A stretch of DNA of 46,375 nucleotides from Candidatus Eisenbacteria bacterium (GTDB taxonomy: Bacteria > Orphanbacterota > Orphanbacteria > Orphanbacterales > Orphanbacteraceae). The stretch is taken from positions 1 to 46,375 of the forward strand of contig VGIW01000019.1 of NCBI GenBank assembly GCA_016867715.1. The letters run 5' to 3'. Positions 11,759-38,177 of the stretch are shown here, one piece after another (the first letter of the stretch is position 1; every line of letters starts with the position of its first letter). A program made the translations under genes and the position numbers. The notes below the pieces were generated by a model. It was not told the origin of the DNA. It did not search any database and saw only the letters and a list, made by a program, of their open reading frames with translations.

Positions 11759-12216
11759 TGGGGAAGCGTCGTCGCGGGCGCGAGCTGGCGCTCAAGATCC
11801 TCTATCGCCTCGACGTGACGGGAGAGGGATGGGAGGAGGTGAGGGATCGGCTCGAGGAGTACGAGAAGCCGGAGACGGTGCGCCTCTTCGGCATGCGTCT
11901 CATCGAAGCGGTCCTCCTTCACCGCGAGGCGATCGATCGGATCCTCGGCGAGGCGGCGGTCAACTGGGACGTTCGACGGATGGCGCATATCGACCGGAAC
12001 ATCCTGCGGGTCGCGCTCGCGGAGTACCTCGTGCTCGGCGAGACGCCGGCGCCGGTCGTGATCGACGAGGCGATCGAGATCGCTGCGCGCTACTCGACCG
12101 ATGATTCCGGCGCGTTCGTGAACGGGATCCTGGACCGGATCGTGCGCGCGCTTTCGCCCGGCTCGCTCGCCGCGCCGGCGCCCGAGAAGGAAACGCCTCG
12201 CCCGCGGCCCGATTGA
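11758..12216 (+). CDS. nusB: Transcription antitermination factor NusB
   Basis: A 152-residue all-helical protein of the NusB family, which with NusE (S10) binds boxA RNA and supports rRNA antitermination. Visible family features are the basic start GKRRRGRELALKILY, the NWDVRRMAHIDRNILRVALAE segment (in pieces) and the PAPVVIDEAIEIAARYS and GAFVNGILDRI ends. The start is GTG at 11758, sharing one base with the ribH stop. The ribH-nusB pair is common across bacteria; here it places nusB downstream of an FMN riboswitch. About 15 residues at the C-terminus are a Pro/Glu/Arg-rich tail beyond the family core. Confidence 0.93.
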   Translation: MGKRRRGRELALKILYRLDVTGEGWEEVRDRLEEYEKPETVRLFGMRLIEAVLLHREAIDRILGEAAVNWDVRRMAHIDRNILRVALAEYLVLGETPAPVVIDEAIEIAARYSTDDSGAFVNGILDRIVRALSPGSLAAPAPEKETPRPRPD

Positions 12217-12258
12217 CCCCCTTTCGGCGCGTGTGCTATTTTCCGGCGGGTCCGAGTC

Positions 12259-13410
12259 GTGCGCCGGAACGGGGACGGGATCGCCATCGGCAACCTTCGC
12301 ATTCTCGTGGTCAACTGGCGCGACTGGAAGAACCCGGAGGCGGGCGGCGCCGAGGTGCATCTCCAGGAGATCTTCGGGCGGATCGCCGCGCGCGGGCACG
12401 AGGTGACGGTTCTCGCCCACCGGTTCGCGGGGAGCGCCGCGGAGGAGACCGCGGACGGCATGCGCGTGCTCCGGATCGGCGGGAAGTTCGACTTCAACTT
12501 CCACGTGATCCCGTTCGTTCGACGGCGGCGATCGATGGGCCGTTACGATGTCGTGGTCGAGGACCTGAACAAGCTCCCCTTCTTTCTCCCCTTCGCCGCG
12601 AGGGAACCGGTGGGCGCGATCCTCCATCACTTTTTCGGAAGCTCGATCTGGAAGGAGACGAATCCCCTCTTCGCGAGCTATGTCTCGCTCGGCGAACGGT
12701 TGGTGCGCCGGCTCTATCGCAGCGTTCCTTTCTGCGCGGTGAGCGAATCGACGGCCGCCGAGCTGGAGGCCGGGGGAGTCCCACGCTCCCGAATCCGCGT
12801 GATCCACAACGCGGTCGATCACGAGACGTGCTTCCCCGATCCGAATGTTTCGCGCGTGAAGGGGCGGATCGCCTACCTCGGGCGTGTGAAGAGATACAAG
12901 GGGATCGATCACCTTCTCGCCGCGCTCGCCCGCATCCGCGAGGAGATCCCCGAGGCGCACCTTGTGATTGTGGGGCGGGGGGACGACACGCCGCGCCTCA
13001 TCCGGATGACGCGCCGGCTCGGCCTCGAGAAACGAGTGACGTTCGCCGGCTTCGTCGACACGGAGACGAAGGTGAGGCACCTTCGCGAGGCGGAGGTCGT
13101 CGTAACGCCGTCGCCGAAGGAGGGATGGGGCGTCACCACGATCGAGGCGAACGCGTGCGGGACCCCGGTCGTCGCGAGCGACGCGCCGGGGCTTCGGGAT
13201 GCGGTGAGGGACGGGGTGACCGGGCTTCTCTTCCCCTACGGAGACGCGTCGGCGCTCGCGGACCGGCTCCGCCGAATCCTTCGGGACGATGCGCTCCGCG
13301 AGAGGCTCTCGCGCGCCGCGATCGATTGGGCGGCCCGCTTCCGCTGGGAGCGCTCCGCCGAGGAGATGACGGATTGGCTCGAAAGCGTGGCGGCCCTCGG
13401 CCGCCGGTAG
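12259..13410 (+). CDS. GT4-family glycosyltransferase
   Basis: A 383-residue GT-B fold transferase. The N-terminal Rossmann half (LRILVVNWRDW, then EAGGAEVHLQEI for the acceptor site) and the C-terminal half with the GT4 E-x7-E-like signature EGWGVTTIEANACGTPVVAS (about residues 290-310) are clear. It would transfer a sugar from a nucleotide donor to a lipid-linked or polysaccharide acceptor at the cytoplasmic membrane face; the sugar cannot be told. The start is GTG 12259, 42 bases after nusB with no terminator between, so it may be read through from the riboflavin operon. It opens the glycan gene run. Confidence 0.88.
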   Translation: MRRNGDGIAIGNLRILVVNWRDWKNPEAGGAEVHLQEIFGRIAARGHEVTVLAHRFAGSAAEETADGMRVLRIGGKFDFNFHVIPFVRRRRSMGRYDVVVEDLNKLPFFLPFAAREPVGAILHHFFGSSIWKETNPLFASYVSLGERLVRRLYRSVPFCAVSESTAAELEAGGVPRSRIRVIHNAVDHETCFPDPNVSRVKGRIAYLGRVKRYKGIDHLLAALARIREEIPEAHLVIVGRGDDTPRLIRMTRRLGLEKRVTFAGFVDTETKVRHLREAEVVVTPSPKEGWGVTTIEANACGTPVVASDAPGLRDAVRDGVTGLLFPYGDASALADRLRRILRDDALRERLSRAAIDWAARFRWERSAEEMTDWLESVAALGRR

Positions 13411-15716
13411 GCGCTGCGCCGAGCCGCGCGGGGCGGGGAGCGCTCCTCGCCCTTCTCGTGATCGGCGGTCTTCTTCTCGCGTTCTACTCGAGAAACCTCG
13501 TCGGGTTCCCGGGAGAACGGACCTTCTTCTGGGAGGACTTCCTCGAGCAGAACTACCCGTACCGGGCGTTCCACGCCGAGGAGCTCCGCGCCGGGCGCTT
13601 CCCCTTCTGGAACCCGTACCAGTTCGGCGGCATGCCTTTCGCCGCGGACGTTCAGGCGTCGGTCTTCTATCCATTAAACGTTCTTCTCGCCCTCTTCGTG
13701 ACGAGCGGACGGCTCGCGCCGGTCTGGGTGGAGGCGCTGAGCGTCTTTCATGCTCTCCTCGGGGGGTTCTTCCTGTATCTCTTGGTCCGCTTTCGAACCT
13801 CGTGCACGTATGCCTCGATCGTCGCGGGGGTGAGCTGGGCGCTCTCCGGCTTCTTCGTCGTGCGGATGATCCATCTGAACGTCCTCTCGGTCGTCGTGTG
13901 GCTTCCCCTTCTTCTCCTCCTTCTCCTCGTCGCGATCGAAAGGCGCTCGCTCGCCGCCGCGCTCCTCGCGGGGGTCGTTCTCGGGATCTCGTTCCTCGGG
14001 GGATCGCCCCAGTTCTCGCTTTTCATTCTTCTCGCGCTCCTCCTCCTCGCCGCGCACGAGACGGTCGTTCCGCGCGCGGGAAGAGGCGCGGCCCGGTTCG
14101 CTCCGTTCGGGTTTCTCGCGGTCGCGGCCCTCGTCGGCCTCGGCCTCGCCGCCGTGCAGCTCCTCCCTTCCGCGGAGCTCGCCGGGCTCTCGCTTCGGAC
14201 CGAGCTCACGTACGAGAAGGCGAGCGAGTGCAGCTTCGGACCCGCGAGCTTCGCGACGCTTCTCGTCCCTCACGTGTACGGGCGCTACTTCGGCGGCGCC
14301 GGGAGCGGCTACTGGGGACCGGGGCGCTACTACGACTACTGGGAACTGTGCGCCTACGCGGGGAGCGTCGTTCTTCTTCTCGCGGCGTGCGCGATCATCT
14401 ATCGCCCGCGCGATCGGAGCACGGTCTTCTTCGTTCTCCTCGCCCTCTTCGGACTTCTTCTCGCTCTCGGACGATACGGTCCTCTTCATCCTTTGTTCTT
14501 CAAGCTTCTCCCGGTGTACGACCGGTTCCGCTGCCCCGGGCGGGTGATCTTCCTCTCCGGTCTCGCCCTTTCCTTTCTCGCGGGACAGGGAGCGCGCCTT
14601 CTCGGAGAAGTCCCCGTCCGAGGGCGCCGGTGGGCGCTCGCGGGCGTCGCGGGTTTCCTCGCCGCCGCGGGGACGATCGGATACCTCACCGGGCGCCCGG
14701 ACGGTGGCGCGATCGGAACGAGGATTCCCTCCGATGCGGGGTCGACCGCGCTCCGCTCGTACGCGCTCTTCCTCGCCTTCTTCGTTCCCGCAGCCCTCCT
14801 CGTCCTTCGATGGGCGTTTGGAAGAAGTCCCCTGTCGCGGCGGGCGAGAGGGGCGCTTCTTCTCCTTCTCGCGGCGGAGCTCTTCGCGCTCGGCTACGGG
14901 TTCAACGACGGGAAGACCGATCCCGATCGGTACTACCGGGGCGAGACCGCGATGCTCGATCTCCTCCGAACGGAATCCGAGGGAGGCCTCTACCGCGTGA
15001 AGACCCGCGCGGACGAGGGGATGGTCCTTCCGAGAAACATGGGGAGCGTGAACCGAATCCCGAGCGCCGACGGGTACAACCAGCTCAAGCTGCAGCGTTA
15101 CGAAGACCTCCAGGTGGGCGGGCATGTTTCCCTCGCACGCTTCTTGGATCTTCTCGGCATCCGGATCTACGCGTCCTACGATCGAGACGCGCGCACGCTG
15201 CGCCTCGCGCGGAACGAGGACTGTCTTGCGAAAGCGTGGTTCGTTGGCGAGGCGGAGGTTCACGAGAACCCGCGCGCTCTTCTCGATCGGCTTGGAGCGG
15301 AGGCGTTCGATCCGCGCCGGACGGTCCTTCTCGAGGAAGAGATGGACGCGCCGGGCGGAGGGAGCGGTTCTGCGACGGTGACCGCGTGGGGCCCGAATCG
15401 AATCGAGGTGGAGGCGACGGCCGACGGTCCCGGCTACCTCGTTCTCGGAGAGATCGCGTACCCGGCGTGGCGCGCGCGCGTGGACGGCGACGAGCGGCCC
15501 GTTCTTGCCGCGAACCGCGCCCTCCGCGCGGTGCGGCTCGAGGAAGGGCGCTCGACCGTCGTCTGGGAGTATCGCTCGGCGAGCTTCCGCACGGGCGTAG
15601 TCGTCGCGCTGGCGACGCTCCTCACCGCCGCCGTTGTTCTCTTTGCCTTCTGCCCGCGCCGGAAAGACGGAATCCGCGCGGTGTGGAGAGCGCTGAACCG
15701 GGGAGGAGCCGAGTGA
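13374..15716 (+). CDS. YfhO-family integral membrane protein (GT-C-like), first copy
   Basis: About 780 residues with roughly a dozen membrane helices in the first two thirds and a C-terminal soluble beta-rich domain (about 590-740) followed by one more helix. Family features are the early periplasmic-loop acidic segment WEDFLEQNYPYR with G-R-F-P-F-W-N-P-Y, and the late YPAWRARVDG segment with the final Y-R-S sequence. YfhO-like proteins are GT-C-fold candidates that add sugars from polyprenyl phosphate donors, e.g. to lipoteichoic acid. The likely start is TTG 13374, because GAGGAG lies eight bases upstream and there is no ATG in frame; GTG 13458 is the alternative. It overlaps the GT4 gene by 37 bases. 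A second, divergent copy is at 30032. Confidence 0.82.
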   Translation: MARKRGGPRPPVGAAPSRAGRGALLALLVIGGLLLAFYSRNLVGFPGERTFFWEDFLEQNYPYRAFHAEELRAGRFPFWNPYQFGGMPFAADVQASVFYPLNVLLALFVTSGRLAPVWVEALSVFHALLGGFFLYLLVRFRTSCTYASIVAGVSWALSGFFVVRMIHLNVLSVVVWLPLLLLLLLVAIERRSLAAALLAGVVLGISFLGGSPQFSLFILLALLLLAAHETVVPRAGRGAARFAPFGFLAVAALVGLGLAAVQLLPSAELAGLSLRTELTYEKASECSFGPASFATLLVPHVYGRYFGGAGSGYWGPGRYYDYWELCAYAGSVVLLLAACAIIYRPRDRSTVFFVLLALFGLLLALGRYGPLHPLFFKLLPVYDRFRCPGRVIFLSGLALSFLAGQGARLLGEVPVRGRRWALAGVAGFLAAAGTIGYLTGRPDGGAIGTRIPSDAGSTALRSYALFLAFFVPAALLVLRWAFGRSPLSRRARGALLLLLAAELFALGYGFNDGKTDPDRYYRGETAMLDLLRTESEGGLYRVKTRADEGMVLPRNMGSVNRIPSADGYNQLKLQRYEDLQVGGHVSLARFLDLLGIRIYASYDRDARTLRLARNEDCLAKAWFVGEAEVHENPRALLDRLGAEAFDPRRTVLLEEEMDAPGGGSGSATVTAWGPNRIEVEATADGPGYLVLGEIAYPAWRARVDGDERPVLAANRALRAVRLEEGRSTVVWEYRSASFRTGVVVALATLLTAAVVLFAFCPRRKDGIRAVWRALNRGGAE

Positions 15717-29104: not shown

Positions 29105-30035
29105 CCGGTTCAGCATCCTCCGCGTGCTTCTCTCGTCGGCGCTCGTCGCGGCGATTCTCTTCTTTCTTGCGAGGCTCCTCGCGAGAAGCTGGCGCGAGGC
29201 GGGCGTCTATGATTGGAACGTGAACGGTTGGTGGATCGCAGCCTCGTTCGCCGTGCTCGCCCTCTACTTTCCGTTCGTCGCGTGGATCTGGGCGGGGCTC
29301 GCGAGGTCCGTGGGTGGGGAGATCTCCTTCCGCGGGGCCTGCCGCGTTTGGTTTCTTTCGCAGATGGGCAAGTACGTTCCCGGAAAGGTCTGGTACGCGA
29401 TGGGACGGCTCTACCTGAGCCGCGAGTCGGGGCTCGGCATCGTTCCGGCCACGGCGAGCACGCTTCTCGAGATCCTTCTCGTCCTTCTCTCGGCCGGCGC
29501 GGTCTTTCTCGTGTCACTTCCCTTGTGGCCGTCCCCCGCGCGAGGCGAGCTTGTGTGGATCCCGATCGCGGTGGTTCTCCTCGCGCTTCTCGTGCACCCA
29601 AAGATCTTCGCGCTTCTTCTTGGCCTCGCCGCGCGCGCGCTCCGCCGGGAAGTTCCCCCGGTTCGGCTTACGTGGAGCGGCCTTGCGTGGAACACGGCGC
29701 GCTACGCGGGGAGCTGGATCCTCTACGGCGCCGGGATCGACTTCCTTCTCCGCGGCATCCGCATGGATGGCGCTTCGGCGGAGATCGCGCTCGGCGCGCC
29801 GGGACGGATTCTCTTCATCGCGGGGTCGGCGGCCGTCGCGTGGTCGCTCGGGTTTCTCAGCCTCTTCGCCCCCGGCGGGCTCGGGGTCCGCGAAGCATCC
29901 TTCGCCTATTGTCTCTCGATGCATCTCGCGGCGCCGCTCCCGGTTCTCCTCGCGCTCGTCGCGCGGCTCTGGATCGTCGTGGGGGAAGTCGGGTCGGCCG
30001 CGGTCGGATGGCGCCTCGGAGGAGGAGCTCGGTGA
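29091..30035 (+). CDS. UPF0104 / lysylphosphatidylglycerol synthase-type membrane protein, second copy
   Basis: A 314-residue polytopic protein with about eight helices. Family marks are SQMGKYVPGKVWYAMGRL (about residues 86-103), similar in place to the NFLPANIGGD segment of the first copy, and the FAPGGLGVREAS loop near the end. The probable role is lipid flipping or lipid-head modification linked to glycan transfer; the substrate is not visible. It starts inside wecB (14-base overlap) and ends overlapping the GTG of the second YfhO-like gene, the same UPF0104/YfhO pairing as at 13374-16720 but in reversed order. Confidence 0.82.
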   Translation: MERPSRFSILRVLLSSALVAAILFFLARLLARSWREAGVYDWNVNGWWIAASFAVLALYFPFVAWIWAGLARSVGGEISFRGACRVWFLSQMGKYVPGKVWYAMGRLYLSRESGLGIVPATASTLLEILLVLLSAGAVFLVSLPLWPSPARGELVWIPIAVVLLALLVHPKIFALLLGLAARALRREVPPVRLTWSGLAWNTARYAGSWILYGAGIDFLLRGIRMDGASAEIALGAPGRILFIAGSAAVAWSLGFLSLFAPGGLGVREASFAYCLSMHLAAPLPVLLALVARLWIVVGEVGSAAVGWRLGGGAR

Positions 30036-32392
30036 AAACGCGCATGAACAAACCCCGGCGCGATGAAACGAAGAAGACCCGGGCGATTCCTCCCGCGGCG
30101 CGGCTCGGCGACCCGGGGTGGGACCGCGCGGCGCCCCTCCTCTACGCGATCCTCACCGTCCTCTTCTTCGCCGGCTTTCTTTTCACAAGTAAAATGCTTT
30201 TTGGGACGGACACGCTTCCGATGGGATACGCGGCCAGGAAGGTCTACGCCGATCTTCTTCGCTCGACCGGGTCGTTTCCGCTCTGGAATCCGTACATCAT
30301 GGGCGGGATCCCGATGGTGGACGGGCTCGTCGGGGGGGAGATGTTCTACCCGACGACCCTTCTCCAGTTCATCCTTCCCGTGCACCGGGCGCTCGGCCTG
30401 AAGCTCGTGATCCACATCTTCCTTGCGGGGTGGTTCTTCTATCTCTTCGCGCGGGGGCGCGAGGCTTCGCGGGCCGCCGCTCTCGCCGGCGGGGCGTCGT
30501 ACATGTTCGCCCCGTACCTCATCTCGCTCATCTACGCGGGGCACGACGGAAAGCTCTTCGTCGCCTCGCTTCTCCCCTTCGGCTTCTTCGCCCTCGACCG
30601 TCTGATCCGGCGCGCGCGCTTCGAGGACGGTCTTCTCTTCGCTCTCGTCGTGGGCCTCCTCATCCTGACAGCACATCTCCAGCTCGCCTTCTTCGCCTGC
30701 GGCGCCTTCGGCTTCCTCTTCATCTGGGAAGGCGTCTCCGCCTGGAAACGGGGGGAGAAGCGCCGGGTCGTTCGCGCGGCTCTCCTCTTCGCGGGAGCGG
30801 CGCTTCTCGGCGCGGCTCTCGGCGCCGTCCAAACCTATCCTGCTTACCGCTACACGAGCCGCTTTTCTCCGCGCGCGGGGGGTGTCACCTACGAGTTCGC
30901 CACCTCCTGGTCGATTCACTGGGAGGAGGCGGTCTCGCTCGTCGTGCCGGAATTCGGGCACTACCTGGATGACTACTGGGGGAAGAACCCGTTCAAGCTG
31001 AACTGCGAATCCCCCGGGTTCGTCGCGATGCTCCTCGTGGCGGCAGGGCTCTTCCTCCTCCGTCGAGACCGCGGTCTTCTCTTCTGGTACATCGTCCTCC
31101 TCGCGTCGTTCATCTACGCGCTCGGCGCGGAGACGCCGTTCTTCCGGATCATCTATCATCTCGTGCCGAAGTTCTTCCGCGCGCCGAGCACGATCCTCTT
31201 CTTGTTCTCGTTTGCCGCCTCGTGGATCGCCGTTCGGGTGCTCGACGCCTATTGGCAGGGACGCGACCTTCGCAGGATTCGCATCGGGTTCGCGGCGGCC
31301 GGGGCGCTTCTCCTTCTTCTCCTTCTCTTCGTTTCATCGGGTGAGGGCTTCTTCCGCGCGTGGTCGTCGGTCTTTCACAAAAACATCTCCGCGGAGAATC
31401 TTCGAACGGCCGTGCGCAACATCCCGAACGCGCAAGCGGGCATTCTCGCGAGCCTTCTCATCGGGGGCCTGTTCATCGCGGTCGCGGAGGGGGCGAGGAA
31501 GAAGCGCTGGGCTCTCGAATGGACCGCTGCGGCGACGGTTCTCCTCGTTTTCGCCGCGAACGCGCGGACTTCGCGCGATTTCGTCAAGGCGGTCCCGCTC
31601 GAGGATTACGTCCGCGAGGACGCGCTCATCCGGCGCATGAAGAGCGATCCGGAGGTTTTCCGGGCGCTTTCCACGATCCCGAACCTCCACGACAACTACT
31701 TCTCGATTTTCGGGATCGAAGGAGCGCGAGGGTTCTTCGATAACCGGATCCGGTGGTACGACGAGGTCTCCTCTCCGGAGAACCTCCAGAGTCCGAATGT
31801 TCTCAACCTTCTAAACGTGAAGTATATCGTCTCCGGCGCGGGACTCCGGCATCCGTCGTTCGTTCAGGAGACGACCGAGGGAGAGCGCGCCCTCTATCGA
31901 AACCTGCAGGTCCTACCGCGCGCGTTCTTGGCCGAGAGCTTCGAGATCGTCGATCGTTCCCGAATGATCGTGCGCATGAAGGATCCGGATTTCGCGCCGC
32001 GCAGGACGATCCTTCTCGAGGAGGACCCCGGCTTCGCTCCGGACTCCGGGGAATCGGGGGGAGAGCCGCCGCCGGCCGTCTGGATCGCGTACACCCCCAA
32101 CCGCCTTCGACTGCGGGTGACGGCGGCGCGGCCGTCGCTCCTCTTCGTTGCGAACCCGTGGCTGCCGTATTGGCGCGCGCGGGTCGACGGAAGCGAGGCC
32201 CGGCTCCTCCGCGCGCACTACGCCTTCCAAGCGATCCCCGTTCCGGCGGGGGAGCGCGAGGTGACGCTCGAGTTTCATTCCGATCCCTTGCGGGCCGCGG
32301 TCGCCGTGAGCGGCGCGGCGGCCGCCTTTCTCGTCGCCGGCGCCCTCTTCACCATCGCGAGGCGGCGGAAGGGAGGGGGAGATGGCGCCTAG
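30032..32392 (+). CDS. YfhO-family integral membrane protein (GT-C-like), second copy
   Basis: 786 residues with about a dozen helices, then a periplasmic beta-rich domain and a last helix. The first loop carries GTDTLPMGYAARKVYADLLR, and F-P-L-W-N-P-Y-I-M-G-G-I-P; near the end NPWLPYWRARVDGSEA and HYAFQAIPVPAGE correspond to the C-terminal module of the first copy. The role is as for that copy: a candidate sugar transferase using polyprenyl donors. GTG 30032 is preferred (GGAGGAG upstream); ATG 30044 is an alternative. It overlaps the next GT2 by 11 bases. The loop sequences of the two copies differ, so they probably act on different sugars or acceptors. Confidence 0.84.
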   Translation: MKTRMNKPRRDETKKTRAIPPAARLGDPGWDRAAPLLYAILTVLFFAGFLFTSKMLFGTDTLPMGYAARKVYADLLRSTGSFPLWNPYIMGGIPMVDGLVGGEMFYPTTLLQFILPVHRALGLKLVIHIFLAGWFFYLFARGREASRAAALAGGASYMFAPYLISLIYAGHDGKLFVASLLPFGFFALDRLIRRARFEDGLLFALVVGLLILTAHLQLAFFACGAFGFLFIWEGVSAWKRGEKRRVVRAALLFAGAALLGAALGAVQTYPAYRYTSRFSPRAGGVTYEFATSWSIHWEEAVSLVVPEFGHYLDDYWGKNPFKLNCESPGFVAMLLVAAGLFLLRRDRGLLFWYIVLLASFIYALGAETPFFRIIYHLVPKFFRAPSTILFLFSFAASWIAVRVLDAYWQGRDLRRIRIGFAAAGALLLLLLLFVSSGEGFFRAWSSVFHKNISAENLRTAVRNIPNAQAGILASLLIGGLFIAVAEGARKKRWALEWTAAATVLLVFAANARTSRDFVKAVPLEDYVREDALIRRMKSDPEVFRALSTIPNLHDNYFSIFGIEGARGFFDNRIRWYDEVSSPENLQSPNVLNLLNVKYIVSGAGLRHPSFVQETTEGERALYRNLQVLPRAFLAESFEIVDRSRMIVRMKDPDFAPRRTILLEEDPGFAPDSGESGGEPPPAVWIAYTPNRLRLRVTAARPSLLFVANPWLPYWRARVDGSEARLLRAHYAFQAIPVPAGEREVTLEFHSDPLRAAVAVSGAAAAFLVAGALFTIARRRKGGGDGA

Positions 32393-33122
32393 TTCGGACG
32401 CGAAGACAATCGTCGTGATTCCGACATACAACGAGAGGGAGAACATCCGAAAGCTCCTTCCGGAGATCCTCGCGATCGGCGAAACGATCGAGGTCCTCGT
32501 GGTGGACGACAACTCCCCCGACGGGACCGGCGCCGTCGTGAAAGAGCTCGCTGCGAAAAACCCGAGGGTCCACCTTCGCGAGCGTCCGGGGAAGATGGGG
32601 CTCGGCTCCGCGTACGTGAAGGGGTTCCGCGAGGCGCTCGATCTGGGCGCGCGGCTCGTGGTCGAAATGGACGCCGACCTCTCGCACGATCCCAAGTATC
32701 TCCCCGACTTCCTCCAGCTCGCGCGGACGGCGGACGTCGTGATTGGATCGCGCTACGTGCGGGGCGTGAACGTGATCAACTGGCCGATGTCGCGGCTCAT
32801 CCTTTCGTACGGGGCGAATGTCTACACGCGGATCATCACGGGGATGCCGATTCGAGACGCGACCGGCGGTTTCAAGTGCTTCCGGAGTGAAGTTCTCGAG
32901 GCGATCGATTTCGAATCGGCGCGATCCGACGGCTATTCGTTCCAGATCGAGATCAACTTCCGGTGCTGGAAGAAGGGCTTCCTCATTCGGGAGATCCCGA
33001 TCGTGTTCGTCGATCGCCATTCCGGGACCTCGAAGATGTCCAAGCGAATCATCTGGGAAGCGGTCTGGATGGTCTGGCGTCTTCGTTTCGGGAGTCTCTT
33101 CCGTGTCGGGAGAAAAGGATGA
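32382..33122 (+). CDS. Polyprenyl-phosphate mannose synthase-like GT2 (DPM1-type)
   Basis: A 246-residue GT2 with no membrane helices. VVIPTYNERENI, VDDNSPDGT (41-49) and EMDADLSHDP (DAD at 97-99) are the DPM1-type signatures, and ATGGFKCFRSE with SDGYSFQIE complete the active site. It should make polyprenyl-P-mannose (or a related hexose) for the GT-C transferases encoded nearby. It begins within the YfhO-like gene and its stop overlaps the next ATG, so it is translationally coupled on both sides. Confidence 0.93.
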   Translation: MAPSSDAKTIVVIPTYNERENIRKLLPEILAIGETIEVLVVDDNSPDGTGAVVKELAAKNPRVHLRERPGKMGLGSAYVKGFREALDLGARLVVEMDADLSHDPKYLPDFLQLARTADVVIGSRYVRGVNVINWPMSRLILSYGANVYTRIITGMPIRDATGGFKCFRSEVLEAIDFESARSDGYSFQIEINFRCWKKGFLIREIPIVFVDRHSGTSKMSKRIIWEAVWMVWRLRFGSLFRVGRKG

Positions 33123-35290
33123 GCGGGCCGGACGCCGAACGGAAGGTTTGGCTCTCGATCATCTTCGTAAGCTATAACACGCGCGAGCTTCTCGTGGAGG
33201 CGCTCCGGTCTCTCCAGACGAACCCTTCCGCATACGAGACGGAAGTCCTCGTCGTCGACAACGCATCCACGGACGGAAGCGCCGATGAGATCGCGCGGCT
33301 CTTCCCGCGGGTGCGGATCCTCGCCAACGAGAAGAACCTTGGCTATTCGAAGGGGGTCAACGAGGGAATCCGCGCCTCGAAGGGGGAGTTCTGTCTCGTC
33401 CTCAACCCGGATATCCGCGCGCGCCCGGGGAGCCTCGACCGCCTTCTGGAGTACGCGATCGAGAACCCGGACGTAGGCGTCGCGGGGGCGAAGCTGCTGA
33501 ACCCGGACGGGTCGCTCCAATACTCGAGCCGGAGCTTCTACACATGGAAGACGATCCTCTTTCGGCGGACGCCGCTCGGAAAGATCTTCCCGAACGCGGG
33601 CGCTCTCCGCGAGCATCTCATGCTCGACTGGGATCACCGGACGACGCGCGATGTCGATTGGATGCTCGGCGCATGTCTTCTCGTTCGACGAAGCGCAGTC
33701 GACGACGTCGGCCTGATGGACGAGCGTTTCTTCCTCTACTTCGAGGACGTGGATTGGTGCTACCGCATGAAAGCGCACGGGTGGCGAGTAGTCTACGTTG
33801 CGGACGCGGTGATGGAGCATCACCACCGGCGGGAATCGGCCCGCGGCCTTCTCACGCGGCAGAAGGCGTCCCACGTCGGCAGCATGTTCCGTTTCTTCGA
33901 CAAGTGGAGCCAGTCGTGGTACCGCCTGAAGACGAGGCGTCATTGGGCGCGCTTCATCCTCCACGCCGCGGCCGACATCCTCGTCGTGAACCTTTCCTTC
34001 TTCGCCGCCTACGGGATCCGCGTCTTCCTCGGGGAGGTCTTCACGAAACCGGTTTTCCCGATCGCGACGTACGGGACCTTTCTCCTCTTCGTCAACCTGA
34101 CCACCCTGCTCAGCCTCGCGGCCACCGGCTTCTACCGCGAGACCGACCGCCCGGTCGGCGCCGGTCTCTTCGTCGATATGTTTCTTCGAGCGCTCCGAGC
34201 GGCCGGCATCGCGTACTTGGTGGCGACAGCGGCGACCTTCCTCGTGCAGGCGCGGATCTATTCGCGCTTTCTCGTCACGATCTTCTTTCTCCTGCTCGTC
34301 GTGCTTCTTCCGCTCGGGCGCGTCGCCCTTCACGCGATGTACCGGGCCCTCCGGCGGAACGCGTATGATCTTCGCCGCGCGATCGTCGTCGGATCGAACG
34401 ATTTGGCGCGGAGCCTCGCCGAGCAGATGCGGGCGTTTCCCGCGCTCGGATACGACGTGGTCGGGTTCGTGACGGAGCCGGACGAGACTTTCAGCGGGAA
34501 GGGCTTCCTCGGGACGACCGAGGATCTTCCGCGGCTCGTGCGGAGGCACCGGGTGACGGACGTGTTCTGCGCGGGGAGCCGCGACCCCCTTCCGCTCGTG
34601 TCGCGACTTCTGCTCGCGCTCGCGGACGCGCCGGTGTCGGTGCGCGTCGTCTCGGATCTCGCGGCGATCACGATCTCCCGCGGGGAGGCGGAGGAGTTCC
34701 TGAACCTTCCGATGCTCCGGTTCGAGCGGCGGAGCCTGGTCCGCTACCGCCCGGGGCGGAAGCGCCTGTTCGACCTCCTCTTCGCGTTCGCGGGGATCGT
34801 CCTCGGCCTTCCCCTCTTTCTGCTCCTCTTCTCGGCGGGGCTCGCGGGCGCCCGGCCGGTCTTCGCCGTGGAGACGCGGCCCCACATCCGCGGCGCGAAG
34901 GTGCGCGTGCGGAAGCTCCGCGTGCCCGGACCGGAAGAACGAGGGATGATCCGATCGACGCTTCGCGGCTTCTACCGCGCCCTCCCTTTCGCGGCGTTCT
35001 ATCCGGCCCTTTTCTCGGTTCTCGCCGGCCGGCTCTCGTTCATCGGTCCAAGCGTCGGCGAGGCGGAGAAGGGACGCTTTCTCGACGAGTGGCAGCGGCT
35101 CGTCGCGACGATGCGTCCCGGTCTCTGGACGTCGGCGGCCGTCGCGGGGTATCCTTGGGTTCCGTTCCGGGATCCGGTCGGGCTGAACCTGTACTATCTC
35201 CAGCACTGGTCGGTGGGGCTGGACCTCCACATCGTGCTCCGCGAGATGCTCCGTTCGGCGCGAGGAGGAGGAGAAACTTTTGATGATTAA
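33119..35290 (+). CDS. Fusion: GT2 rhamnosyltransferase-like domain + membrane region + degenerate phosphoglycosyl transferase-like domain
   Basis: 723 residues. Residues 1-235 form a WbbL-like GT2 (SIIFVSYNT, VDNASTDGS, NPDIRARPG, FFLYFEDVDWCYR). Residues 278-405 hold about four membrane helices. Residues 418-545 resemble the nucleotide-binding CoA_binding_3 part of CapD/WbaP-type proteins (AIVVGSNDLARSLAEQ). Residues 548-714 match the bacterial sugar transferase end (KRLFDLLFAFAGIV, LSFIGPS, MRPGLW, NLYYLQHWSVGLDL). The catalytic Asp-Glu of the L-D-E-L-P-Q motif is replaced by Ala-Ala (RALPFAAF, 620-627), and the K-F-R-S-M segment reads KLRVP. The second domain is probably not an active transferase. 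ATG 33119 overlaps the previous stop. Confidence 0.86.
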   Translation: MSGPDAERKVWLSIIFVSYNTRELLVEALRSLQTNPSAYETEVLVVDNASTDGSADEIARLFPRVRILANEKNLGYSKGVNEGIRASKGEFCLVLNPDIRARPGSLDRLLEYAIENPDVGVAGAKLLNPDGSLQYSSRSFYTWKTILFRRTPLGKIFPNAGALREHLMLDWDHRTTRDVDWMLGACLLVRRSAVDDVGLMDERFFLYFEDVDWCYRMKAHGWRVVYVADAVMEHHHRRESARGLLTRQKASHVGSMFRFFDKWSQSWYRLKTRRHWARFILHAAADILVVNLSFFAAYGIRVFLGEVFTKPVFPIATYGTFLLFVNLTTLLSLAATGFYRETDRPVGAGLFVDMFLRALRAAGIAYLVATAATFLVQARIYSRFLVTIFFLLLVVLLPLGRVALHAMYRALRRNAYDLRRAIVVGSNDLARSLAEQMRAFPALGYDVVGFVTEPDETFSGKGFLGTTEDLPRLVRRHRVTDVFCAGSRDPLPLVSRLLLALADAPVSVRVVSDLAAITISRGEAEEFLNLPMLRFERRSLVRYRPGRKRLFDLLFAFAGIVLGLPLFLLLFSAGLAGARPVFAVETRPHIRGAKVRVRKLRVPGPEERGMIRSTLRGFYRALPFAAFYPALFSVLAGRLSFIGPSVGEAEKGRFLDEWQRLVATMRPGLWTSAAVAGYPWVPFRDPVGLNLYYLQHWSVGLDLHIVLREMLRSARGGGETFDD

Positions 35291-37634
35291 ATGGATCCTT
35301 CTCGGGTGGTCGCTCGTCCTTCTCCCTCTCCGCGCCGGAGCGGAGGACGTGTGGGACGTGCACGTCAACCAGCGGAACGGATACGATCTCGCGCGCGACG
35401 ACCGGTACGTGTATCTCGCAACGGCCGGAGGGGTGCTCAGGCTCGAGGTCCAAACCGGCGAGCTCAGTCCGATTCTCCCGCTGGACGGCCTCGCGAGCGT
35501 CAACGTTCCATGCGTCGCCGTCGACCGCCGGGGGAACAAGTGGTTCGGGCACGGGGATCCCGACTTGGGCGTCTCGCTTCTCGACTCGGCGGGGAACTGG
35601 TCCCTCGTCTCGTCCTTCGAAGGACTGCGACTGAATCGCGGAAAGAAGGTGAACACGATCCACGCCGCAGGGGACTCCGTTTGGATCGGGACCGAGAGCG
35701 GAGCGACCCTCTTCGAGAACCGCGCGCGGAGGATCGTTCTCTCCCAGGAGAAGGAGGGGATCGTCTCGGACGACATCCACGCGATTCTCTCGACCGAAGG
35801 GAAGATCTGGCTCGGGACGAACCTCGGCCTTTCCGTGTACAGCGCGGGGACGGTTCGGAACTACACGGTGGAGACGGATTCCCTTCCGGTTCCGGAAGTG
35901 CTCGCCCTCGCGGTCGACCGGAGCGCTCGGATCTGGGGGGGGACGTCGCGGGGTGTCTTCCGAGTCGAAAACGGAGAGGTGAGAATCCCCTCCGAGTTTC
36001 TCCTTCTCCAGAATCGGCGAATCCGAGCGATCGCGTTCGAGGACTCCTCGGGAACGGACATCCCCTGGTTCGCAACGGACAACGGCCCGTACCGCAAGGT
36101 TGCGCGCAAGACGAGAAGGGACACCGGAACCGAGATGGGCGACCCGGAAGACGCCATGAAGGTCTTCGTCGACCGTCAAGGAGATATCTGGCTCGCCAAC
36201 AACCAGCGATGGCTGTTCCGGTGGGTTCCGACCGCGGATGGCTGGAAGGAATACACGCAGCGCGGCACGATCCCTCTCAATCATCTCGCGGACGTTGCGG
36301 TCGATCGAAGCGGCCTCGTCTGGTGCCCGCTGGTCGGGAACCTCGAGGGGCCGAACAACTCGCCCGGCAACCGTATGCTCGTGTACGACCAGCTCACGTG
36401 GACCTCCGTCGGGCAAGCGCTCGGTTCGCAGCACTCCTCGGTGTCGAGCGTCGCGATCGACAGCCTGGGGAATCGTTGGTTCGGCGTCCGCGCAGGAGGG
36501 ATCGTCCCGCAAGGGACTCTCCTCAAGATCGGCGCGAACGTCGGCGCGGTGGTCGCCGCAAGCGACATTAAGTACTTCTCGATCAACGCGCCCGATTTCG
36601 CCGAGCAGACCCGCGCCGTCTACAACATCGAGGTCGGCCCCGACAACACAAAATGGATCGCGGTGACCTCCGAGGGAGTCGCCGCGCTCGATTCGGCGGA
36701 AAATGAGACCGCTTGGGGCGGCTGGTCCCACGAGAACGGGTGCTTCGGGAACGAAGGGCCATCGCTTCCGGTGTCCGCGCTGGACGTATCGATCGGAAAG
36801 GACGGAAGGATCTGGTGCGCGACCGAGAAAGCCTACGCGGTCGCCATCGACTACCGAGGCACGCTGACGAACCGAACGGACGACCTGTGCACGCGCTACA
36901 ACGCTCCGAGCTCGCCGTTCCCCTCGAACCTCATCTACACCGTCCGCGTGGATCCCGCGGGAATCGTCTGGTTCGGCACGCAGGGCGGGATGGTCCGCTA
37001 CGATCCCCTCTCCCGCCAATGGAAGGTCTACACCGCTCAGAACACGGGCGGTGGGCTCCCTGACAACCGGGTGCGCGCGATCGCCTTCGACCGCCTGGGG
37101 AACACGTGGGCCGGCACGTTCGGCGGCGGGGTGGGCGTTCTTCTCCGCGACGGCGACACGTGGCTAGAGCCTTACACCCTCGCGAACAACCAGAGAAGAG
37201 GAAGCGGGCTCACTTCGAACGAGATCACCTCGTTCTTCGTTCGGGTCAACAGCATGAACGAGGAAGAGATCTGGATGGCGACGTGGGGAGGAGGGCTCAT
37301 CCGGTTCGTGAAGGACTGGAGCGACCGTCCGGTGATTGGGGATCCGGAGAGGCTTCTTCCGGTCCTTGCGTACCCGAATCCTTATCGGGAGGGAGAGGAG
37401 ACCGGGGGGGAGATCCGTTTCGCGCGCGTGCCGGTGGGAGCGAATCTGTCGATTTACAGCCTCGCGGGCGATCTCATCCGAATTCTCGACGGTCCCGCGG
37501 CCGAGGACGCCGCCGATCCGATCTGGGATCTTCGGAATGGGGAGAGGATCCCGATCGCATCAGGAATCTACCTTTTTATCGTGAAGAAGAACGGCGAGGT
37601 CGTCCACTCGGGGAAGATCGCGTATGTGCGGTAG
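35283..37634 (+). CDS. Secreted Reg_prop beta-propeller protein with FlgD-like C-terminal domain
   Basis: 783 residues. Residues 1-20 look like a signal peptide ending AGA. About ten repeats of the two-component-regulator propeller type follow (for example GNKWFGHG, GKIWLGTN, ARIWGGTS, GIVWFGTQGG, GNTWAGTFGGG, EIWMATWGGG). The last 95 residues (LAYPNPYREGEET...SGIYLFIVKK) are a FlgD-like beta-sandwich, common in surface proteins of FCB-group bacteria. There is no kinase domain, so it is a secreted propeller, not a sensor. Start: ATG 35283 after GAGGAG, overlapping the fusion gene by eight bases; TTG 35280 adds one residue. It may be a surface ligand-binding or scaffold protein; function is unknown. 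Confidence 0.85.
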   Translation: MIKWILLGWSLVLLPLRAGAEDVWDVHVNQRNGYDLARDDRYVYLATAGGVLRLEVQTGELSPILPLDGLASVNVPCVAVDRRGNKWFGHGDPDLGVSLLDSAGNWSLVSSFEGLRLNRGKKVNTIHAAGDSVWIGTESGATLFENRARRIVLSQEKEGIVSDDIHAILSTEGKIWLGTNLGLSVYSAGTVRNYTVETDSLPVPEVLALAVDRSARIWGGTSRGVFRVENGEVRIPSEFLLLQNRRIRAIAFEDSSGTDIPWFATDNGPYRKVARKTRRDTGTEMGDPEDAMKVFVDRQGDIWLANNQRWLFRWVPTADGWKEYTQRGTIPLNHLADVAVDRSGLVWCPLVGNLEGPNNSPGNRMLVYDQLTWTSVGQALGSQHSSVSSVAIDSLGNRWFGVRAGGIVPQGTLLKIGANVGAVVAASDIKYFSINAPDFAEQTRAVYNIEVGPDNTKWIAVTSEGVAALDSAENETAWGGWSHENGCFGNEGPSLPVSALDVSIGKDGRIWCATEKAYAVAIDYRGTLTNRTDDLCTRYNAPSSPFPSNLIYTVRVDPAGIVWFGTQGGMVRYDPLSRQWKVYTAQNTGGGLPDNRVRAIAFDRLGNTWAGTFGGGVGVLLRDGDTWLEPYTLANNQRRGSGLTSNEITSFFVRVNSMNEEEIWMATWGGGLIRFVKDWSDRPVIGDPERLLPVLAYPNPYREGEETGGEIRFARVPVGANLSIYSLAGDLIRILDGPAAEDAADPIWDLRNGERIPIASGIYLFIVKKNGEVVHSGKIAYVR

Positions 37635-37736
37635 GCGCCGGGAGGAGGCCCGTTCTCCGCGGGCGAGCCGCGGGCGGTTCGGCCGAAGAAGGAGCCCGTC
37701 CCCGGCCTCCAGCTCCCGCGGGAGGCGCCGCGCCGA

Positions 37737-38177
37737 ATGAAGATCCCGACCGCTTCGCTCCGCCGGTTGCTCGGCCCGAGGCTCTGGCTCCGCCAGTTCG
37801 TCAAGTTCTGCATTGTGGGCCTTTCCGGGCTCGCCGTCGATACGTCGGTTCTCGCCCTCTTTACGGAGATCGCTCGCCTGGATCCGCGCGCGGCGGCGGT
37901 GCCCGCTTTCGCCGTGGCGGTGAGCTGGACCTACACGATGAACCGGTGGTGGACGTTCCGTGCCGGGGGCGCGCGGGGCGTGGGTGTGTCGTACGCGAGC
38001 TTCGTCGGGGTCTGCCTCGCGGGCCTCGGGCTCCGCCTGCTCACGATGCACCTACTCATGGAGTACGGCGGCCTCGGAGCGGGCCGCCGCTACTACCTCG
38101 CGAGCCTCGCCGGCATCTTCGTCGCCACCTTCTGGAACTTCGCGGGAAGCAAGTTCGTGGCCTTTCGCAAGCGATAG
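37737..38177 (+). CDS. GtrA-family small membrane protein
   Basis: 146 residues with four predicted helices in the GtrA layout: FVKFCIVGLSGLAVDTSVL, a second helix with TYTMNRWWTFR (the usual N-R-x-W-T-F loop), and a C-terminal FWNFAGSKFVAFRK. GtrA proteins are thought to flip or assist polyprenyl-phosphate sugars made by GtrB-like GT2 enzymes, several of which are encoded upstream. A 102-base gap separates it from the propeller gene; that gap is very GC-rich with a CCGCGGGC direct repeat but no clear terminator. Upstream of the ATG the ribosome site is weak. Confidence 0.88.
   Translation: MKIPTASLRRLLGPRLWLRQFVKFCIVGLSGLAVDTSVLALFTEIARLDPRAAAVPAFAVAVSWTYTMNRWWTFRAGGARGVGVSYASFVGVCLAGLGLRLLTMHLLMEYGGLGAGRRYYLASLAGIFVATFWNFAGSKFVAFRKR

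Follow-up and report, generated by a model that had tools for sequence, protein, structure and literature searches.

What does a glycosyltransferase do when it is fused to an initiating phosphoglycosyl transferase (PGT), the enzyme that normally begins surface-sugar synthesis, and the latter appears to have lost its catalytic residues? The question is raised by a gene found in the stretch of 46,375 nucleotides of Candidatus Eisenbacteria DNA analysed here at its full length (hereafter the window). The ORF occupies positions 33119-35290 of the plus strand (ATG at 33119, stop at 35290) and encodes 723 amino acids; the coordinates given in the original prediction, which described a GT2 joined to a catalytically empty PGT domain, correspond to its C-terminal quarter. 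We consider it rather likely that this protein is a membrane-scaffolded GT2, i.e. the leftover of a disarmed bifunctional PGT-GT2, standing beside a polyprenyl-monophosphate-sugar pathway.

The product was divided into successive segments, all encoded on the plus strand. The GT2 domain (residues 12-265, positions 33152-33913) is supported by PF00535, family motifs and dN/dS. It is followed by the four-transmembrane bundle of Lg-PGTs (residues 275-415, 33941-34363), for which AF2 gave helices at residues 276-303, 315-335, 348-376 and 383-415, and by a Rossmann-like DUF (PF13727; residues 416-515, 34364-34663) supported by Pfam, AF2 and dN/dS. A linker forming a beta-hairpin (FLNLPMLRF; residues 516-545, 34664-34753), equivalent to the dimer-swap hairpin of WbaP, leads to the pseudo-PGT. 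The latter comprises a basic KRxxD motif with a predicted re-entrant membrane helix (residues 546-590, 34754-34888; AF2 and alignment), the shortened former active-site segment (residues 591-634, 34889-35020; dN/dS and alignment) and a C-terminal part carrying LSFIGP, PGLW and YYLQHWS (residues 635-712, 35021-35254; dN/dS).

Pfam profiles matched residues 13-152 (PF00535, E 1.8e-24), 352-511 (PF13727, E 1e-18) and 548-710 (PF02397, E 7e-14, above Pfam's cut-off), and TIGR03025 covered residues 285-708 with an E-value of 3e-48, yet below that model's own cut-off. The PF02397 match agrees with a GT2 fused to a PGT domain as first described, but the fusion partner is a complete Lg-PGT, since residues ~275-515 consist of the four-transmembrane bundle and the Rossmann DUF, placed in the usual order before the PF02397 domain. 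An assembly or frameshift artefact was ruled out, as a 95% identical gene and relatives at 55-62% have the same form in other assemblies. Chance can likewise be excluded, because the dyad-less architecture recurs in >100 genomes from several phyla.

The N-terminal GT2 had been described as looking intact, and the catalytic positions proved invariant in the family. VVDNASTDG (residues 45-53), LNPD (95-98) and YFEDVDWC (207-214) were invariant or nearly so across the fusion family, with D47, N96-P97-D98 and E209-D210 identical in all 12 fusions compared, and GT-A structures were among the top Foldseek matches. Judged from its sequence, this domain is a GT-A-type GT2 with conserved donor and base motifs.

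For the PGT half, the hallmarks considered were the basic motif, the helix-break-helix, the DE dyad and PRP (PMC10653937). The family frame is kept (KRLFD at residues 548-552, LSFIGPS at 639-645, PGLW at 667-670, YYLQHWS at 692-698), and KRLFD is accompanied by a helix spanning residues 545-577, whose break is not resolved by the AF2 model. Alignment with 28 canonical Lg-PGTs placed PFAAFYPAL (residues 623-631) opposite TSLDELPQL, so that Asp becomes Ala626 and Glu becomes Phe627 (codons at 34994-34999); the loss of the catalytic pair thus stands, although the replacement is Ala-Phe and not Ala-Ala, which had been read one residue off. KFRSM reads KLRVP (residues 599-603), as previously noted, the uridine-binding PRP is PSV, and most of the loop between KFRSM and LDELP is missing. 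The only nearby Asp-Glu pair, LDEW at residues 655-658, was rejected as a displaced dyad since it aligns with the stretch that normally follows the dyad, reading YDEW, for instance, in L052, an intact fusion. Because both catalytic hallmarks are missing, we filed the window protein under neither the PGTs nor the bifunctional PGTs, but its fold and its descent make it a derivative of the Lg-PGTs.

Its predicted fold agrees with this descent. A full-length AF2 model (20 alignment rows, pLDDT 66, pTM 0.39) was left out of any claim on the fold. A second model, restricted to residues 275-723 and built on an alignment of 15 relatives and 28 canonical Lg-PGTs, reached a pLDDT of 76 and a pTM of 0.59 for this C-terminal half. 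The superposition on WbaP- or PglC-type enzymes that had been suggested as a check gave WbaP (8T53; E 1.4e-14, TM 0.59 on the target) and Campylobacter PglC (TM 0.65) as the best PDB matches, a result partly built in by the canonical sequences of the alignment. These matches suggest that the PGT fold has outlasted its active site.

Selection was assessed segment by segment from dN/dS between the window gene and its 95% relative. The ratio was 0.057 for the GT2 domain, 0.12 for the transmembrane bundle, 0.018 for the Rossmann DUF, 0.21 for the re-entrant helix and 0.07 for the C-terminal part of the PGT, the last indicating purifying selection, and the hairpin showed a dN of 0 with no amino-acid difference. 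GT2, DUF, hairpin and PGT C-terminus are strongly constrained. The former active-site segment reached 0.62, a value resting on 13 differences, whereas the same segment gave 0.16 and 0.06 when two intact paralogues were compared between these two genomes (Fisher tests on small counts: 0.002 versus the rest of the gene, 0.05 versus the paralogues). This pattern indicates that the fusion gene is alive and that the old active site alone appears released; together with the wide distribution of the family, it rules out a one-off pseudogene. With dyad and PRP lost, the loop deleted and selection relaxed over the active-site segment, the claim of a catalytically dead PGT domain beside an intact-looking GT2 is strongly supported by the sequence data.

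A domain that still transfers phosphosugars by means of other residues seems very improbable. The predicted retention of the fold would speak for it, as would the Asp that persists in some relatives (LDRFP in L099 and its relatives, LDLLP in L329), but selection on the segment is relaxed, and no other acidic residue has taken the place of the dyad in a conserved manner, the letters found there varying freely (AF, SV, SR, DR, RY, HR, ER or deletions). The near-neutral active site and the deletion of the PGT domain in several relatives could also mean that the remnant is debris without any role, GT2, bundle and DUF alone being of importance. This we regard as distinctly doubtful, as purifying selection acts strongly on the C-terminal 78 residues in the lineage of the window, and motifs such as PFRDPxGLNxYYLQ persist throughout the phylum.

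The prevalence of the fusion was assessed among 386 genomes spread over bacteria, where it occurred in some 25-30 families. All six well-assembled genomes of the window's phylum carry it, and a seventh contains a fragment at a contig edge. It was matched in 48 of the 49 high-quality genomes of another phylum (that of G051; E<=1e-120) and in 67 of 94 in that of G060, and named relatives include Candidatus Eisenbacteria, Effluviviacota and MAGs filed as Gemmatimonadetes. Since the fusion is near-universal in whole phyla, it is probably part of the basic machinery of envelope construction in these groups. The survey of the dyad proposed with the original prediction showed that its loss is not universal. 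In a first sample, the dyad was absent from 36 of 41 distinct fusions and intact in five, and about nine further relatives with GT2, bundle and DUF lacked the whole PGT domain; PR was kept in about five of the 36 dead fusions, whereas the KRxxD that opens the re-entrant helix was retained in the dead fusions of this sample. A second, independent sample gave 76 dyad-less fusions out of 81, the other five being intact. Ten fusions thus keep Asp-Glu (L052, L053, L063-L065, and members of L275-L287); L282 was counted as dead, the DE pattern match there falling in the hairpin.

Complete standalone Lg-PGTs kept the dyad in 71 of 74 cases. In the remaining three, the dyad is YK, and each is the gene immediately upstream of a dead fusion (in G080, G221 and G350). 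At these loci (L058, L059 and L060, minus strand), the Tyr-Lys Lg-PGT and the dead fusion form two adjacent disarmed scaffolds, which are perhaps heterodimer partners. Four other candidates for dyad-less standalone genes (L095, L016, L105 and L108) were discarded as contig-edge or broken-frame fusions. Other, strong PF02397 genes were present in 34 of 35 dead-fusion genomes. In G334 (L051 and L189; 98% complete), a dead fusion is found with no other monotopic PGT match.

A single tree comprised 129 fusions, i.e. 119 without the dyad (some of them without the whole PGT domain) and ten with it, and the dyad state changes four times on it. In the tree of the TM-DUF region, intact L052 and L053 form the sister group of the clade that contains the window (100/99), while a second large dead clade stands apart (99/96). 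A single dead clade was rejected on the DUF/TM tree (AU p 0.011), whereas a single origin of all fusions was compatible with it (AU p 0.197); we accordingly claim repeated loss of catalysis and not repeated fusion. The position of intact fusions next to the window's clade means that catalysis was lost, at least twice. Homologues with a restored dyad had been named as evidence that would overturn the dead-domain claim. Such homologues exist, but they form sister lineages, and thus document loss and not an active domain in the window protein. At L285 (G465:C7), two GT2-Lg-PGT fusions stand in tandem, one with LDEFP and one with LEKIP, the dyad having apparently been lost recently, after duplication. 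Within an otherwise intact sister phylum, L329 (G386:C19) combines LDLLP with a PRP that is still there, and its Glu loss is apparently recent.

What, then, is the disarmed half kept for? According to the original proposal, the dead domain may be a lipid-binding module that takes up a polyprenyl-linked intermediate, such as a polyprenyl-(P)P-sugar, and passes it to the GT2 of its own chain. The KRxxD kept by the dead fusions of the first sample, the purifying selection on the C-terminal part and the PGT fold predicted around the lost loop would suit such a role, and the kept re-entrant helix and C-terminal part would fit a membrane or lipid contact. We nevertheless find lipid presentation unlikely, since the protein no longer has the nucleotide-binding motif or the loop of the pocket. 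Moreover, about nine relatives that share GT2, bundle and DUF have dispensed with the PGT domain altogether, so that it cannot be essential to the function they have in common, and L234 lacks the membrane bundle as well.

The genomic context was then considered. The fusion belongs to an operon of overlapping or closely spaced plus-strand genes, in the order YfhO, DPMS-like GT2, fusion, beta-propeller and GtrA. The first encodes a YfhO-type membrane protein of GT-C class (29213-32392; PF09586, E 1.7e-10), whose true start is uncertain and lies downstream of the ORF start given here. The second (32382-33122), a conserved partner, encodes a soluble DPM-synthase-like GT2 of 246 aa lying directly upstream of the fusion, whose ATG overlaps its stop (4-bp overlap); this protein has no TM segment, its highest 19-residue hydropathy being 1.2. 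The beta-propeller gene (Reg_prop; 35283-37634) starts with an ATG overlapping the fusion's stop, and the last gene (37737-38177) encodes a small GtrA-family membrane protein, a putative polyprenyl-P-sugar flippase (PF04138, E 2e-23, 37803-38165). Lying between the propeller gene and that of a sigma-54 regulator, the GtrA gene is readily overlooked, as the ORFs there overlap. On the 3' side, the operon is followed by the sigma-54 regulator, Wza- and Wzc-like proteins, GT2s and a FemAB-like protein; on the 5' side lie a UDP-GlcNAc 2-epimerase, other GT2s and a second YfhO-type gene (12213-15716). By gene content, the polyprenyl-P-sugar synthase-like, GtrA and YfhO genes gathered within 29213-38177 make up a predicted multi-component transmembrane glycosylation set. 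The idea that the fusion supplies the missing flippase of the DPMS/YfhO set is weakened by the GtrA gene already present in the window, but less so for other genomes, as 26 of 37 with a fusion gave no GtrA match.

In Eisenbacteria-type loci, the DPMS-like gene is the most conserved member. The DPMS-fusion pair is kept in every one of these loci that covers enough sequence, and YfhO precedes it wherever the contig extends that far. A DPMS-like gene lies directly upstream of the fusion in both large dead clades, and overall in 96 of 118 dead fusions versus none of ten intact ones; in G452 and G453, the dead copy has such a neighbour and the intact copy has none. This association was not significant after phylogenetic correction (two pairs for, none against, two uninformative), the weak statistics being due to the only four dyad-state transitions on the tree. 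In one phylum, about half of the sampled dead fusions have no DPMS-like neighbour. At L252, L265 and L258 of the same phylum, our reading of the upstream ORFs placed the dead fusion 3' of rlmH- or nadD-like housekeeping genes, with no glycan locus.

These data bear on a further possible role for the bundle, DUF and pseudo-PGT, as tether and activator of the soluble DPMS-like enzyme, the two GT2s then forming one complex acting on polyprenyl monophosphate sugars. DPM3 serves DPM1 in a comparable manner. Separate membrane partners are also known in GacJ for GacI (PMC8035078) and in Ppm2 for Ppm1 (PMC3460810), and the lack of a TM segment in the DPMS-like protein, the conserved pair of the Eisenbacteria-type loci and the contrast between dead and intact fusions are in line with tethering. 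Besides the non-significant corrected association and the many dead fusions of one phylum without this neighbour, however, in four of the 20 fusion-free genomes examined (L230, L232, L233 and L240), the gene after the DPMS-like one encodes a GT2 of the same family that is soluble and stands alone, so the scaffold is dispensable for the pair, and we deem tethering improbable. At L234 (G061:C38), likewise in a fusion-free genome, the gene 3' of the DPMS-like one encodes a GT2 of 401 aa, which carries a degenerate and soluble Lg-PGT DUF but has neither membrane bundle nor PGT domain. Judging from the lone GT2s and L234, the pairing of DPMS and GT2 may predate the scaffold or be independent of it. 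A broader version, in which a module spanning phyla would use the disarmed PGT to dock a soluble polyprenyl-phosphate-mannose synthase while the fused GT2 extends the polyprenyl-monophosphate sugar, strikes us as quite improbable; if true, glycan assembly would have passed from pyrophosphate- to monophosphate-linked intermediates by killing one enzyme and recruiting its neighbour.

The membrane-scaffolded GT2 that we favour would have arisen as follows. A bifunctional GT2-Lg-PGT ancestor could have made a polyprenyl-PP-sugar and then added the next sugar. The PGT active site was lost in the lineage of the window and, on separate occasions, in other lineages. These proteins retained the four-helix bundle, the Rossmann DUF together with the dimer hairpin and, mostly, the membrane-hugging PGT remnants. 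The remaining protein would hold the GT2 at the cytoplasmic face of the membrane, where it may transfer a sugar onto a lipid-linked acceptor that a different enzyme produces. In the window, this enzyme most likely either comes from the same operon or is provided in trans. The DPMS-like GT2 (polyprenyl-phosphate-mannose-synthase-like), GtrA and YfhO would constitute a transmembrane glycosylation set beside a Wza/Wzc-type polysaccharide locus. We infer a functional coupling of the fusion to the DPMS-like enzyme, and a pathway using polyprenyl-monophosphate sugars by analogy with CsbB-GtcA-YfhO (PMC8035078). As the DUF of WbaP forms a dimer via its hairpin and binds UMP/UDP (PMC10942596), the scaffolded GT2 is probably dimeric and possibly responds to nucleotides through its DUF.

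Domain annotation would call such genes sugar transferases or PGTs, and hence create a false glycan-initiating step. The family also offers a natural series, running from separate genes through intact and dead fusions to forms that have lost the PGT domain or the membrane part. With such a series, one may ask which role the 4TM-DUF half of Lg-PGTs, conserved but little understood, plays once catalysis is gone. The family further points to a specific, testable partner, i.e. the adjoining DPM-synthase-like enzyme. In the literature searched, which left the main sequence-network study of monotopic PGTs aside, we found no earlier description of a dead GT2-Lg-PGT fusion.

Several known systems can be compared with the window protein. 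It shares the GT2 fold and the conserved positions of WbbL/rhamnosyltransferase-like GT2s (PF00535, TIGR01556), a family in which the second sugar is often added to a lipid-PP-sugar, but differs from them in bearing an Lg-PGT-derived membrane scaffold of ~450 residues. With Lg-PGTs (WbaP, PDB 8T53; WcaJ; TIGR03025/TIGR03023, PF13727+PF02397), it has in common the bundle, DUF, hairpin, a predicted re-entrant helix and the C-terminal part, in this order, and a predicted fold matching that of WbaP; unlike them, it has an N-terminal GT2 and lacks Asp-Glu, PRP and the KFRSM-LDELP loop. Like the Bi-PGTs, in which a PGT domain is fused to another functional domain (PMC10942596), it unites a PGT and another enzyme of glycoconjugate synthesis within a single polypeptide. 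Fusions of GT2 and Lg-PGT with an intact dyad would be Bi-PGTs, whereas the PGT half of the window protein appears dead, with one predicted catalytic function left. Finally, the operon resembles CsbB-GtcA-YfhO and GacI-GacJ-GacK-GacL (PMC8035078) in combining a DPMS-type GT2, YfhO and GtrA, and is distinguished from these multi-component systems by its extra GT2/pseudo-PGT protein.
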